IMG/VR virus record: IMGVR_UViG_3300037245_000688
Location: 1-25,154 of that record
Origin: a virus
Reading direction: 5' to 3' (one strand)
DNA length: 25,154 nucleotides
In this document: positions 15,319 through 24,031 of the stretch, in pieces
How positions within the stretch are numbered: position 1 is the stretch's first letter
How the letters are laid out: every line of letters begins with the position of its first letter
Translations under genes and position numbers: made by a program
Notes under the pieces: generated by a model
Seen by the model: only the letters and a program-made list of their open reading frames with translations
What the model was told of the DNA's origin: nothing
Databases searched by the model: none

Positions 15319-16578
15319 TTATGCGTTACCGAAGAATTGACCACCAAACAAAGGGTTGAATGTGCAGAAACTTGGTAACAAGTCAAAGCGTACATCTTGT
15401 GTATTAGTGATTGGATCAGAAGAGTTAGTAACACGAATGCTAAACCCATCAACACTAATTACTGAAGAATCCCAGCCGTTAAGCTTAGGAAGCTTCACAC
15501 TACCAACACCTACAAAGCCTTTGGTGTAGAACAAGCCCGGCTGATAAGTGGAAGATACTGAACCGACTAGGCTGAATGTATCACCTGAAGTGATAGCTCT
15601 ATCAACAGTGTCATACTGTGGGTTAGTTGCATCAAAGATTGGTGCGCCAGATAGTACAACAGTAGCTTCACCTGATCCATTAGCAGTAACATTAGCAGTA
15701 ACAGTACCAACCCAAGGGATAGTAGCGTTATTACGAGAGATAACATTCTTGTTTTGTTGGTTAAGCATAGACGTCTGAGTGAATGCCAATTGCTGACCAG
15801 CAACAAGAGTACCACTAGCGCCCAGTCCAGTAAGATCGATACTGATTTGATAAGTATCTTTCAATGCTGAATAAGTAACAGTAGGAGTATTATCAACTGT
15901 TCCGGCAGTACCAGTACCAGTCGTATAAGAACCAAGAGAGTTACAAGTAAGACCTTTCAAGCCACCAAAATCACGGCTGATTTGTGCTTTTTCCCATGCA
16001 GTAGTTACTAGGCTAGAGTTACCGCTAGATAATCCACCTTGAGCATCGGCTAAATTCTGAACACTAAAAGGATTCATAGTAGCCATGCGCTCACCAGTAA
16101 CACCTAAAGCAGCAAGGTATGAACCAGTTCCAGCAACATCACCCCAAGCATCAATAGCTTGAGCAGGAGTACCATTAGATAGACCAGCATTCTCAATCAT
16201 GTAAGTAGCTAGCTCTGCTTCCAAAGTGGTAATCATTTCCGCGTGTGCAGGTTTTAAGATCTCATCCAATTGATTAAGACGAATAGCCTCATCAAGAATT
16301 GAATAAGGGATACGAACAGTAATCATGTCGCTTACAGTCGCTGTGGTGCTTGCTGATATAATGTTATTTGATACGCCTGTCATATCACCACCTGAAGTTC
16401 GAGCGGCTGAGTATTGATGTGGGCGTTTGAATTGTACAGTGTCACCTGTATTTGGGTTTAATTCACCAGCTAATAGTTGTGTGTCTACTGTGTTAAGTAG
16501 AACGCGATCATCCATAAAGCCTTCTGTAAATTTTTTAAGTATTAACGTGCTTATGTTCTTAGTTGCTGTAACAGTCAT
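15319..16578 (-). CDS. Major capsid protein, P22 coat-like (gp5)
   Basis: At 419 aa it is close to P22 coat (430 aa, PF11651) and follows the scaffold gene. Its landmarks fit an HK97-fold coat with the P22 type of inserted I-domain: a helical N-terminus, an alpha/beta P-domain (LEAELATYMIENAG, GERMATMNPFSVQNLADAQG), the approach to the insertion DFGGLKGLTCNSL, then a beta-rich insert (residues about 215-345) holding ISIDLTGLGASGTLVAGQQL and KNVISRNNATIPW, and the C-terminal SFCTFNPLFGG. The insert in P22 coat guides folding and stabilises the procapsid. AGGTG about 8 bases before the ATG is a usable ribosome-binding site. It should be the most abundant virion protein. Confidence 0.85.
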   Translation of the reverse strand: MTVTATKNISTLILKKFTEGFMDDRVLLNTVDTQLLAGELNPNTGDTVQFKRPHQYSAARTSGGDMTGVSNNIISASTTATVSDMITVRIPYSILDEAIRLNQLDEILKPAHAEMITTLEAELATYMIENAGLSNGTPAQAIDAWGDVAGTGSYLAALGVTGERMATMNPFSVQNLADAQGGLSSGNSSLVTTAWEKAQISRDFGGLKGLTCNSLGSYTTGTGTAGTVDNTPTVTYSALKDTYQISIDLTGLGASGTLVAGQQLAFTQTSMLNQQNKNVISRNNATIPWVGTVTANVTANGSGEATVVLSGAPIFDATNPQYDTVDRAITSGDTFSLVGSVSSTYQPGLFYTKGFVGVGSVKLPKLNGWDSSVISVDGFSIRVTNSSDPITNTQDVRFDLLPSFCTFNPLFGGQFFGNA

Positions 16579-16588
16579 TTCGATTCAC

Positions 16589-17386
16589 CTATTCAATAAT
16601 GGCGTTCGGAAACCTCTTGTCAAAATCATCACCTTCGCGAGCGGGTAACCCCGTCAATCCGGTAACTGGTTCCGGCGCACTTGTAATATTACGTTGTAAG
16701 GCTTTCGTTTCTAGAGCGTCCAAAGCTTTAACCATTTCATAGGCACCACCTGCACTGTTTACTTGATCAAAATCCGCAGGATTACTGGCCAAGAAATCAA
16801 TAAAAGGGGCGCTATTAGGGTGCTGTAGTAACATCTCAGACAATTGTGGGCTTATCCCACGCTGAACTAATACCGTTGCACTCTGGCCTACCTTATCTAC
16901 ATCTAAATTGTGAGTTGTTGCGCTTTCATTCAGTTTCCGCTGTATTGCGGTGTTTTCTGTTTGAAGACGTTCCTTCTCAACACGTTGCCTTTCAACACTA
17001 TTGACAGACTCTTGTTGTAGTGCGATTTGACTTCGAATCATCTCCGTATTATGCGCATCCATTTGCTTGTTATAAGCTGCCTCATCTTCATATAGAAGGT
17101 CTTGGCTTGGTCGCGTTGTAGATTGCGGGGCTTCTACTTGTATTTCCGCTGGAGCTGGCTGACTCATTCTTAATTTATAATCAGCTAATTCTTTTTCTGC
17201 ATTATCAGCACGAGTTTGCTGTTCGTACTTCTGTGCAGTTATCTTGTTAAATCGCTTATCTACAGCTTCCTGATTAATTGGCTTAGGGTCTGCTGTGGCT
17301 GTTTCTTCGCTTGCCGGGCTAGTAGTGGATGAATCTACAGGTGAATCAGCTGCCGCTGTCTCAATCATCGCTTGTTCTTCGGGCAT
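16589..17386 (-). CDS. Scaffolding protein, P22 gp8-like
   Basis: The 265-aa product lies between portal and coat, as gp8 does in P22 (303 aa, PF09306). It is very hydrophilic and mostly helical: a Ser/Thr/Ala/Glu-rich disordered start, a coiled coil over about residues 45-165 (EQQTRADNAEKELADYKLRM, then RQRVEKERLQTENTAIQRKL), and a basic/mixed C-terminus (KALQRNITSAPEPV). In P22 the C-terminal basic helix-loop-helix binds coat and the N-terminus controls exit. Upstream of the ATG at 17386 is AAGGTAAG, and the 188-bp gap before it holds promoter- and operator-like sequences, so this gene and coat may be separately boosted. Confidence 0.8.
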   Translation of the reverse strand: MPEEQAMIETAAADSPVDSSTTSPASEETATADPKPINQEAVDKRFNKITAQKYEQQTRADNAEKELADYKLRMSQPAPAEIQVEAPQSTTRPSQDLLYEDEAAYNKQMDAHNTEMIRSQIALQQESVNSVERQRVEKERLQTENTAIQRKLNESATTHNLDVDKVGQSATVLVQRGISPQLSEMLLQHPNSAPFIDFLASNPADFDQVNSAGGAYEMVKALDALETKALQRNITSAPEPVTGLTGLPAREGDDFDKRFPNAIIE

Positions 17387-17412
17387 TTATCTTACCTTTC
17401 GGTTACTTCTAC

Positions 17413-17427
17413 CGTGATACTGTCACG
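17413..17427. repeat. Inverted repeat CGTGA-N5-TCACG in the scaffold leader
   Basis: Two 5-base arms (CGTGA and TCACG) flank TACTG. The element lies between the proposed -10 box (17441-17446) and the scaffold ATG, so it would fall in the first 10-20 bases of a transcript from that promoter. It could be an operator or a small RNA hairpin. A 5-base palindrome is weak evidence by itself; its placement is what makes it notable. Confidence 0.35.
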
Positions 17428-17440
17428 TACAGTTAAATAT

Positions 17441-17468
17441 ATTATATACAAAAACGATCATTTAGCAA
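17441..17468 (-). promoter_or_regulatory. Promoter-like sequence upstream of scaffold and coat genes
   Basis: Read on the - strand, TTGCTA (17463-17468) and TATAAT (17441-17446) are separated by 16 bases. The -10 box is a perfect sigma-70 match and the -35 box matches at 4 of 6 positions. Transcription would begin near 17434, giving a leader of about 48 bases before the scaffold ATG. The first AACGATCA repeat (17451-17461) sits in the spacer, a classic place for a repressor or activator site. Strength and use in vivo are unknown. Confidence 0.45.
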
Positions 17469-17577
17469 AATTACTGTGACATAAACGATCATATAGTATG
17501 TTTGCTAGCAAAGGTAGGTTGCCTACTAGCAGGAGTAGTGACATAAACGATCATCAAGTAGTGACGTTAACGATCAA
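17451..17577. repeat. Four direct AACGATCA repeats in the portal-scaffold gap
   Basis: The core AACGATCA occurs at 17453-17460, 17484-17491, 17546-17553 and 17569-17576, all in the same orientation. Copies 2 and 3 share the exact 17-mer GTGACATAAACGATCAT; copy 4 is GTGACGTTAACGATCAA and covers the portal stop codon. Core-to-core distances are 31, 62 and 23 bases; the first two are about 3 and 6 helical turns, so those sites face the same side of DNA. Every copy contains GATC, a Dam site if the host has that enzyme. I saw no other copy in the window by eye. They look like binding sites for a regulator. Confidence 0.7.
17504..17530. repeat. Hairpin-forming inverted repeat between repeat copies 2 and 3
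   Basis: GTAGG (17514-17518) pairs with CCTAC (17522-17526) around a 3-base loop. Outside it, GCTA (17504-17507) pairs with TAGC (17527-17530), with a 6-base bulge on one side. On the late-operon RNA this would lie between the portal and scaffold genes. No U-run follows, so it is not a standard terminator; it could mark RNA processing, a pause or a mild terminator. Confidence 0.35.
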
Positions 17578-19694
17578 CTATCCTCTATGTCTTCCTGTAA
17601 TTTAGTTGCTTGATCAATATAAGCCTCTGTATTATGTGGCCCCACAATAGAGTCTACTCCCATTGCTTGCCTGATTGTGTCTAGGGTTTCAGCCATAACA
17701 TTCAAGTGATTATCTTGAGCCTCTTGGTTCTTAAGATTCATATCTTGCTGAGCTAGGGCATCCTTTCTATCCTGCTCTCTTTGCTTGTTTATTTCAGCCA
17801 TAAATTTAGCTTGGGCGGCTAGACCGTCAGATTGAGCTTTAGCCTGTGCTTGCTGTGCTTTGGCCATAGCCTCTTGCTGTTGAGCCCCTAGTGTTTGCAT
17901 AGTCTGCATTACTATTGGGTCTGGTGGCTGATTAGCTGCTGCCTGTTGTGCTGCTGCCTGAGCTTCTAACTCTTCCTCTGTCATTTGGTCTTGAGGGATC
18001 TTACCCTGTGCTAATAATTGCTGCCTTGCTCTGTCAGCGACCTTATCAATACCCGGAGCATCTATGTTTCTTAAGAATATATCGGCAGATCCTTCTATAA
18101 CTCCCGGCATGATTGGCGCAACTTCTAGCAATGCGCTATTAGCTTGGCCTTGTCTGTTTTTAAACATCGGACCCATTGAACAGTTAACAGTAAATTGACC
18201 ATTAAGATTATTTAGGGTTTTTACTCCATCACTATTAGGAATATTTTCATTAAGCTTTTTAATATCAATTGATCCGTCGGCATTAGATATAACCACTTCA
18301 CGAGTCGTATCGTATACACCTGGCGCACCGTCAATAATGATCTTGCATAGACCTGTAATACCGATTGCCATATCTAAATAGAAACCACTATTACCCGTAT
18401 CTCCTTTTTGTTGAAGTAGTTCAATAGCGACTCCACTCTGTACGCCTACTGAGTTACCCAAGTTATTAGCAAACATCCCACCAACTTCTTGAATGTTTGT
18501 ACTGGCTTCGGCTGCTGTAATTTGTAAGGAGGGGTTAGCCTGTGGTCCTAATAGTTGATAAGGAGGCGGGGCTTTATCATCGACTTCATAGAATTGTACA
18601 GGGTCAGCACTTATATTCATATTGGCTAGCTGGCGTTCATGACCTTTAGCCTGCTTGCTAGTCATCATGATTTTAGACATTGGAGCTAGAGCGCCCTCCT
18701 CTACTTGTCTTGATACCGCATAGTTAAAGACTCGTTGCGGGTCCATCATATTTTCGACCATTCGCCGCCATGTAATTTTATCTTCTACAATCTCGAAGCC
18801 GTTATAGAATGGGGCAATAGGTAGGATCGTGAATACAGTTTTCTTCTCCTCTTCCAAAAAGCCATCACCATCAAAGAATCGACTCCATACGGTAATATCA
18901 GGGCGTGTTCTACGTCTAACTTCTAGCTCACCTTGCTCTGCTAGTCTATCTTCATTACCGTCAACATCTTTAGCGTCATAGACATTCCCATTATTCATTT
19001 GAACAATAGTTTTCTCTGTACGTTTTTTATACAGTATCTCGCCAACTACAACCAACTCTCTTTTACCATTGGTATAGTAATCAATATCGCCAGTAGGAAC
19101 GCTCTCGCCTGATCCCTTTGGCCATTTCTCATCATACTTCTCTTTGGTAATACCTTGTAGAACTACAACCCAATTGGCATCAGACCTATCTTGCTTCTCA
19201 GAACCTTGATCAAACCACACCCGATCGATAGCGTTGGGTATATAGTTAATAATCAAATCTTGGTCAAAACTATCATCATCTCTGTAATCATGCACAACTC
19301 GACAAGCATCAAACCCATATGATGTAAGGTTTCTGGCTATCTTCTTATACGTAAAGCCAGCATCAGACCAACCTTGAATCGATCTTAATAACCCATCTAA
19401 TAGATCAGCAGTCTCTTTGGTTGATTCCTTACCACCAGTAGGGGTTACAGAGGCAGAAAATTCATTCTGTTCAAGCTCTCCCACTATCGCATCAAGTATT
19501 GGACTTGTTCGATCATAGGTATAACGGGGTCTACCTTGATTACTTAAAGTTTGCCAAACGTCATCCTCCCACTGCCCATTCTTTTTAGTGGTAAAGATTT
19601 TGCACTTTCTGGCATCGTCACGCTGGTCTTTTTCATTGGCTTGAACTAATTCAAGTTCTTTTAATACTTCGTCTATTTTATCGAATGTCATCAT
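17574..19694 (-). CDS. Portal protein, P22 gp1-like
   Basis: The 706-aa product is close to P22 gp1 (725 aa, PF16510) and is placed between terminase and scaffold, as in P22. Recognisable segments are an N-terminal helical part with RPRYTYDRTSPILDAIVGEL, NEFSASVTPTGGKE, the crown/wing region with NYIPNAIDRVWFDQGS, and YNYAV-type helices around MVENMMDPQRVFNYAVSRQ. The last 140 residues are Gln/Ala-rich coiled coil (QQQEAMAKAQQAQAKAQSDG), like the long C-terminal barrel of P22 portal. Twelve copies would form the DNA channel, bind terminase during packaging and gp4-like protein afterwards. The start overlaps the terminase stop (ATGA). Its TGA stop lies inside the fourth AACGATCA repeat. Confidence 0.88.
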   Translation of the reverse strand: MMTFDKIDEVLKELELVQANEKDQRDDARKCKIFTTKKNGQWEDDVWQTLSNQGRPRYTYDRTSPILDAIVGELEQNEFSASVTPTGGKESTKETADLLDGLLRSIQGWSDAGFTYKKIARNLTSYGFDACRVVHDYRDDDSFDQDLIINYIPNAIDRVWFDQGSEKQDRSDANWVVVLQGITKEKYDEKWPKGSGESVPTGDIDYYTNGKRELVVVGEILYKKRTEKTIVQMNNGNVYDAKDVDGNEDRLAEQGELEVRRRTRPDITVWSRFFDGDGFLEEEKKTVFTILPIAPFYNGFEIVEDKITWRRMVENMMDPQRVFNYAVSRQVEEGALAPMSKIMMTSKQAKGHERQLANMNISADPVQFYEVDDKAPPPYQLLGPQANPSLQITAAEASTNIQEVGGMFANNLGNSVGVQSGVAIELLQQKGDTGNSGFYLDMAIGITGLCKIIIDGAPGVYDTTREVVISNADGSIDIKKLNENIPNSDGVKTLNNLNGQFTVNCSMGPMFKNRQGQANSALLEVAPIMPGVIEGSADIFLRNIDAPGIDKVADRARQQLLAQGKIPQDQMTEEELEAQAAAQQAAANQPPDPIVMQTMQTLGAQQQEAMAKAQQAQAKAQSDGLAAQAKFMAEINKQREQDRKDALAQQDMNLKNQEAQDNHLNVMAETLDTIRQAMGVDSIVGPHNTEAYIDQATKLQEDIEDS

Positions 19695-23866: not shown

Positions 23867-24031
23867 TTAACCCTTGCTATCATCAATGCGCCCTATAGCC
23901 TTGTTACAAGTATCTCGAACCCACTTAGAATAAGACTTACCCTTTTCCTTTGCGACTGCCTGCCATGCCTTCTGATCGCTCTCAGTAGCTCTGGCACGTA
24001 TCATTGTGACTACTTCTTTTTTCTTCTTCAT
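23867..24031 (-). CDS. Arc-sized ribbon-helix-helix DNA-binding protein
   Basis: The 54-aa product reads VVTMIRARATESDQKAWQAV then AKEKGKSYSKWVRDTCNKAI. A short beta strand, helix, turn with 'GkSyS' and a second helix starting 'kWvR' fit the Arc/MetJ ribbon-helix-helix fold. Phage P22 Arc is 53 aa. Such proteins bind as dimers of dimers to short operator sites. GGAG about 7 bases upstream supports ATG 24031. Palindromic sequence lies 30-50 bases upstream and might be its own operator. It may also control other late sites such as the AACGATCA repeats, but no sequence evidence links them. Confidence 0.65.
   Translation of the reverse strand: MKKKKEVVTMIRARATESDQKAWQAVAKEKGKSYSKWVRDTCNKAIGRIDDSKG

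Follow-up and report, generated by a model that had tools for sequence, protein, structure and literature searches.

A predicted, covarying RNA pseudoknot closely precedes the scaffold gene in most P22-like phages examined

We analysed the IMG/VR record IMGVR_UViG_3300037245_000688, the whole of which (25,154 nt) is called the window here and which is apparently an incomplete phage genome. On its minus strand the genes for terminase and portal protein are followed by a gap of 187 nt and then by the genes for scaffold and coat. Comparison with relatives identified a conserved, covarying H-type RNA pseudoknot, predicted from the pairing of the leader sequences, shortly before the ribosome-binding site of the scaffold gene in most of the P22-like phages examined, and the gap of the window carries one copy. 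An earlier reading of this gap, made from the letters of the window alone (the original prediction), had singled out four direct repeats placed over a promoter; the conserved element is the RNA pseudoknot, which that reading missed, and not the repeats. Conservation of the pseudoknot suggests a previously undescribed RNA control of capsid assembly. The gap and the pseudoknot, which is made of two stems (S1 and S2, with partner strands S1' and S2') and two loops (L1 and L3), are arranged as follows.

17387..17573, minus strand: portal-scaffold gap of 187 nt (leader/regulatory region), delimited by the ends of the open reading frames (ORFs)
17413..17433, minus strand: H-type RNA pseudoknot ACUG-UA-CGUGA-CAGU-A-UCACG, from comparison and covariation
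17433-17430, minus strand: S1, ACUG
17429-17428, minus strand: L1, UA
17427-17423, minus strand: S2, CGUGA
17422-17419, minus strand: S1', CAGU
17418, minus strand: L3, A
17417-17413, minus strand: S2', UCACG

This is the only strict pseudoknot match on either strand of the window. The hairpin that had originally been proposed (17427-17413) constitutes one stem of the pseudoknot.

About 90 relatives, recognised by their portal and coat genes, were gathered from named phages, viral contigs and bacterial genomes. They are distant, with 57% identity in the best coat match, and their leaders were made non-redundant over 60 nt (n = 89). The general order of the element is S1 (3-5 nt), L1 (2-3 nt, with A or C as the last base), S2 (5-6 nt), S1', L3 (1-6 nt) and S2'. 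Under fixed rules, 75 of the 89 non-redundant leaders contain a pseudoknot, compared with a mean of 0.7 and a maximum of 4 in dinucleotide shuffles. The 60 distinct pseudoknot units include 31 distinct S1 and 29 distinct S2 sequences; S2 nearly always begins with C, and the C-G pair at its foot is the sole fixed stem sequence. Pairing was found in 95.6% of cells, as against 56.7% after shuffling and 32-49% when the partner was slid by one to three columns, 108 cells were changed on both sides (34 expected), and seven of the eight base pairs vary on both sides. The order S1-L1-S2-S1'-L3-S2' is thus found with covariation of both stems. Furthermore, 31 hairpins had been picked on S2 alone, before S1 was noticed, and S1 pairs in 26 of these; when loops were re-dealt, it paired in a mean of 5.2 and a maximum of 11. 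Phages fetched after the model had been formed carry the pseudoknot as well (ZP9, IME279, IME_EC2, PfAn1, BA3, PVA1, Vibrio 1.183, Vibrio 1.039, MW202573 and Sf101), with Rhodoferax P26218, EBPR podovirus 1 and CV-1-33 being the later-fetched named phages in which none was found. Elsewhere strict matches are rare, with 10 in 741 kb on both strands, four of which represent a single mis-called leader. Phages of Escherichia, Shigella, Klebsiella, Shewanella, Pseudomonas, Vibrio and Thalassomonas are included in the spread of the element, together with many marine contigs. Searches of Rfam 15 returned no match at E values up to 1 in the gap and no gathering-level match in 18 relatives, and no earlier description of the pseudoknot was found in Rfam 15 and open-licence papers, so that it may have been described elsewhere.

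The portal-scaffold junctions of the relatives fall into two groups, short-gap and gap-bearing. In enteric phages of the Sf6/HK620/APSE type, mostly 10-13 nt separate portal and scaffold, and a gap of about 50-360 nt, often following inserted cargo genes, is present in most environmental and marine phages as well as in several named phages of other hosts. The distance from the end of the pseudoknot to the scaffold start codon (median 21 nt, range 16-52) is the same with or without a promoter, which indicates that the pseudoknot belongs to the scaffold start rather than to the promoter. In the short-gap (Sf6-like) clade the pseudoknot falls within the final codons of the portal gene and extends as far as its stop codon, and there the portal ends PQSPADSLPS and PQPPTGSLSS differ in their amino acids while both stems remain paired; since the meaning of the codons changes and the stems are kept, it is RNA pairing that appears to be selected over protein sequence. 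In addition, 17 leaders contain two pseudoknots, with different S2 stems in 11 of the 17, and G-U pairs occur in the stems. Different stems within one genome, together with G-U pairs, point to an RNA shape and not a DNA-binding site, and the hairpin was rejected as a DNA operator on these grounds; at the DNA level no conservation of the gap was found in phages. A frameshift-stimulating role was likewise rejected, as the pseudoknot is intergenic in most gap-bearing phages. Scaffold start codons were called mechanically throughout, and in L131 (4079) and L108 (3078) the called starts are too far upstream: both pseudoknots of L131 are located downstream of the called start but ahead of the ATG that is probably the true one, as is a hairpin of the pseudoknot type in L108.

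The pseudoknot of the window stands directly behind a putative promoter.

17463..17468, minus strand: -35-like hexamer TTGCTA, from the sequence, at a position conserved in relatives
17441..17446, minus strand: -10 hexamer TATAAT, 7 nt before the pseudoknot, from the sequence and relatives
17434, minus strand: predicted transcript start, about 7 nt after the -10 hexamer and one base before the pseudoknot, inferred from promoter comparison

This TTGCTA-16-TATAAT site (17468-17441, minus strand) has a sigma70 score of 11.5, as high as that reached in one of 100 shuffles. Across the region, however, nine promoter-like sites were found where 12.3 were expected, and with no such excess the single sequence is insufficient as proof; the support comes from the relatives. 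A sigma70 matrix was applied to these at 4-10 nt above their first conserved RNA stem, and the gap-bearing phages gave a median score of 9.1, with 38 of 46 within the top 5% of their own shuffles, whereas the short-gap enteric clade gave a median of -0.55, with 2 of 24 in this class. The internal promoter before scaffold and coat, one half of the original prediction, is therefore borne out by promoter-like sites at the same distance in gap-bearing relatives, which are absent from the short-gap clade. Judged by sequence, a putative sigma70-type promoter is well supported in the gap-bearing phages, the window included, with a predicted start at or near the first base of whichever pseudoknot lies furthest upstream. 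P22 and P22-type late operons are described as having a single late promoter (PMC8022706), with none before scaffold; the window does not appear to follow this rule, and the predicted internal promoter would represent a departure from it that is common in the gap-bearing part of the group, not a quirk of a single phage.

Other features were seen at the same junction. Directly above the scaffold promoter, L049 (3770-3800) and L093 have terminator-like hairpins with T runs (e.g. GAGCCACCTTCGGGTGGCTTTTTG), which would suit termination of the portal message ahead of the new start. Many marine contigs carry cargo ORFs of 550-690 aa between portal and scaffold, with promoter and pseudoknot remaining beside scaffold; cargo loci include L003 2166-3890, L009 2354-4393, L016 3990-5990, L048 4789-5478 and L145 4603-6298. 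The junction holds a reversed cassette of four small genes in Pseudoalteromonas H6/1 and four small genes in Klebsiella IME279.

Work on the balance between scaffold and coat in P22 goes back to the 1970s and showed that scaffold is autoregulated. We know of no defined RNA target of scaffold autoregulation, in P22 or otherwise, and the pseudoknot before the scaffold start offers a concrete site of 20-odd nt to mutate. We suggest that it may be a cis-acting RNA element that sets the output of scaffold and coat: unassembled scaffold (or coat) protein would bind the leader pseudoknot and lower its own synthesis, so that capsid parts would be produced in step with assembly. A role as translational operator, with scaffold (or coat) protein as the candidate ligand, is a tentative proposal, and it is consistent with a pseudoknot end that at its median position lies just outside the footprint of the 30S subunit. 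With more reserve, we consider it possible that this is a widespread autogenous switch across P22-like phages, in which free scaffold or coat protein would bind the single or tandem leader pseudoknot and stop translation of scaffold, and of coat via coupling, so that the supply of precursors would follow assembly.

The main alternative, to which we give a somewhat lower place still as an unlikely but serious one, is that the pseudoknot acts without a protein ligand, as a 5' shield or a ribosome-side enhancer, making the scaffold-coat mRNA more stable and its translation more efficient. The pseudoknot of gap-bearing phages begins at the predicted 5' end, where it would block decay that depends on that end, and the absence of any fixed stem sequence beyond the C-G pair at the foot of S2 is what would be expected of an element recognised by shape only. 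The short-gap clade, however, keeps the pseudoknot with no promoter nearby and a message that starts far upstream; 5' protection cannot then be its sole role, and a 5' cap as the only function was rejected for this reason.

Several observations weigh against our reading of the leader, and one of them concerns P22, the phage in which scaffold autoregulation was shown: it has only a 4-bp hairpin, CGGC/GCCG, without S1. The same RNA element was thus not found there, S1 being absent from both P22 and SEN22, and since P22 lacks S1 the link to its autoregulation is not established and the ligand is unproven. Fourteen of the 89 leaders are without a pseudoknot under the rules used; this set includes mis-called starts (L108 and L117) and near misses (L104 and L046), but in L151, L156 and L157 there is no sign of a pseudoknot. 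The first examples were already known when the parameter ranges were chosen, although the shuffles were run under identical ranges, and near-identical sequences are numerous among the enteric phages, which inflates the counts despite the use of non-redundant leaders. The P22 hairpin occupies the position of the pseudoknot (L140 3840-3892), and in phage Dewey a first stem might form from TCC/GGA; an alternative P22 pairing, GTGT/ACAC, was dropped because it is not kept in Dewey. Taken as a whole, our best explanation, which we regard as probable, is that the gap is a regulatory leader of the scaffold-coat block within the late operon.

The direct repeats on which the original prediction was built occupy the same gap.

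17453..17460, plus strand: AACGATCA copy 1, within the -35/-10 spacer, exact match
17476..17492, plus strand: 17-mer GTGACATAAACGATCAT, containing copy 2 (17484-17491), exact match
17538..17554, plus strand: 17-mer GTGACATAAACGATCAT, containing copy 3 (17546-17553), exact match
17561..17576, plus strand: diverged copy 4, GTGACGTTAACGATCA (core 17569-17576), overlapping the portal stop, from the sequence

AACGATCA occurs exactly four times in the record, from 17453, 17484, 17546 and 17569 on the plus strand, all within the gap, and four copies were seen in none of 100 shuffles. No other 8-mer of the window has four copies inside 135 nt, nor did one arise in 200 window shuffles; shuffles of the gap gave a four-copy 8-mer in 0 of 2000 and any repeated 12-mer in 1 of 2000. 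A longer unit, GTGACRTWAACGATCA, is common to three of the four copies. Read along the coding strand, two copies have TGATCGTTTATGTCAC and another has TGATCGTTAACGTCAC, while the copy extending into the -10 box has TGATCGTTTTTGTATATAAT. The repeats are real and far above chance; as described originally, two of them lie inside an identical 17-mer, their spacings are 31, 62 and 23, and the last includes the minus-strand TGA of the portal stop (17576-17574). The inverted repeat noted earlier (17463-17475/17495-17507) exists, although it is just 85% complementary. GATC, through which methylation was originally suggested to act, is present within each core but shows no excess in the record (69 copies, about 90 expected).

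What did not hold is the idea of a conserved operator array. None of 40 relatives has AACGATCA-type repeats, and the array is private to this phage. Across 41 upstream regions, the window included, direct repeats at or below 5% of shuffles were found in three and inverted repeats at the 5% level in five, both about what chance would give, with the 17-nt direct repeat of the window as the clear exception; repeats or palindromes above promoters were accordingly dropped as a general operator, including palindromes picked by eye. The exact 16-mer TGATCGTTTATGTCAC was found in nine viral contigs as a single isolated copy each, with no arrays, and in the stretches fetched around it nothing matched the portal, scaffold or coat of this phage. 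Lack of conservation in relatives thus counts against the repeats and not against the promoter. Given how distant those relatives are, a fast-evolving private operator could still be present.

In its original form, the proposal was that the repeats are operators for a phage regulator, either the helix-turn-helix (HTH) protein encoded at 282-458 or the 54-aa protein encoded at 23867-24031, and that the promoter is a dosage switch. The core is identical at 8 of 8 positions in the four copies while the flanks have diverged, one copy lies within the spacer of a promoter that the relatives support, and the record encodes an HTH_3 protein; set against this, relatives lack such repeats and there is no further site elsewhere in the record, a negative limited by the record being a fragment from which the early control region may be missing. 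We consider this model doubtful, together with its claim of a lineage-specific operator on this phage's copy of the promoter. The repeats might instead be without function, left behind at the portal-scaffold junction by duplication or by the arrival and departure of cargo genes. Relatives carry cargo at exactly this place (the marine ORFs and the H6/1 cassette), and copies 3 and 4 form adjacent 23-nt units; a by-product fits poorly with an 8-nt core that is perfect despite drifted flanks and with a copy centred in the promoter, and this too seems improbable. A private operator and a duplication scar are about equally likely. Far less likely is the loading of a Q-type antiterminator. Tandem 8-bp repeats are Q-binding elements at the late promoter of phages 21 and L (PMC8022706), and here too short 8-bp direct repeats lie over a promoter, with one copy between -35 and -10. 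The number of repeats, their spacing (31, 62 and 23, unlike the described tandem pair) and their place in mid-operon all differ, however, and no Q-like protein was seen among the proteins scanned in this incomplete record.

As to the candidate regulators, the HTH call at 282-458 is sound: it is a 58-aa Cro/CI-type protein followed by NinG (520-1134), in the opposite direction to the late genes. The ribbon-helix-helix call at 23867-24031 is weak, the best Pfam E value (0.0085) being below the cut-off, and the 54-aa protein has sub-threshold matches only, to DUF6290 and NikA-like proteins. Around the gap, the genes had been identified correctly according to Pfam and PHROG matches, and portal, scaffold and coat of P22 type follow one another in the order of a P22-like head module.

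17574..19694, minus strand: P22-type portal protein gene, 706 aa (PF16510, E 1e-116)
17395..17399, minus strand: Shine-Dalgarno-like AAAGG of the scaffold gene, from the sequence
16589..17386, minus strand: scaffolding protein gene, 265 aa (PHROG 8865 head scaffolding protein, E 7.8e-14)
15319..16578, minus strand: P22-type coat protein gene, 419 aa (PF11651, E 1.7e-68)

The scaffold Shine-Dalgarno sequence falls within a possible ACC-GAAA-GGT mini-hairpin (window 17391-17406), and a similar CCT..AGG pairing is seen in several relatives.

The closest parallel to the proposed operator is gene 32 of phage T4, in which a leader pseudoknot is the autogenous operator, nucleating the binding of gp32, the protein that the gene itself encodes (PMC535899). 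A 2010 review considered this pseudoknot operator possibly the only viral case (PMC3014915). As in T4, T2 and RB69 gene 32, an H-type leader pseudoknot is found here upstream of the ribosome-binding site of a gene with an abundantly made product, and in T4, too, the pseudoknot overlaps the upstream reading frame. Unlike gene 32, the gene concerned is that for scaffold, in another group of phages, the pairing sequences are others, the stems are smaller (3-5 and 5-6 bp) and often in tandem, and the ligand is a candidate only. In P22, synthesis of scaffold (gene 8) is reportedly down-regulated by its own unassembled product. Autoregulation of the P22 scaffold gene is on record in Wyckoff and Casjens 1985, as cited in PMC5744158. 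The leader described here precedes the same gene as P22 gene 8, at the same place in the operon. In T7, the internal promoters phi9 and phi10 precede the scaffold and capsid genes. T7 uses its own RNA polymerase, unlike the host-type sigma70 hexamers seen here, and while we claim no homology, both arrangements would place an additional promoter directly before scaffold and coat within a shared late block.
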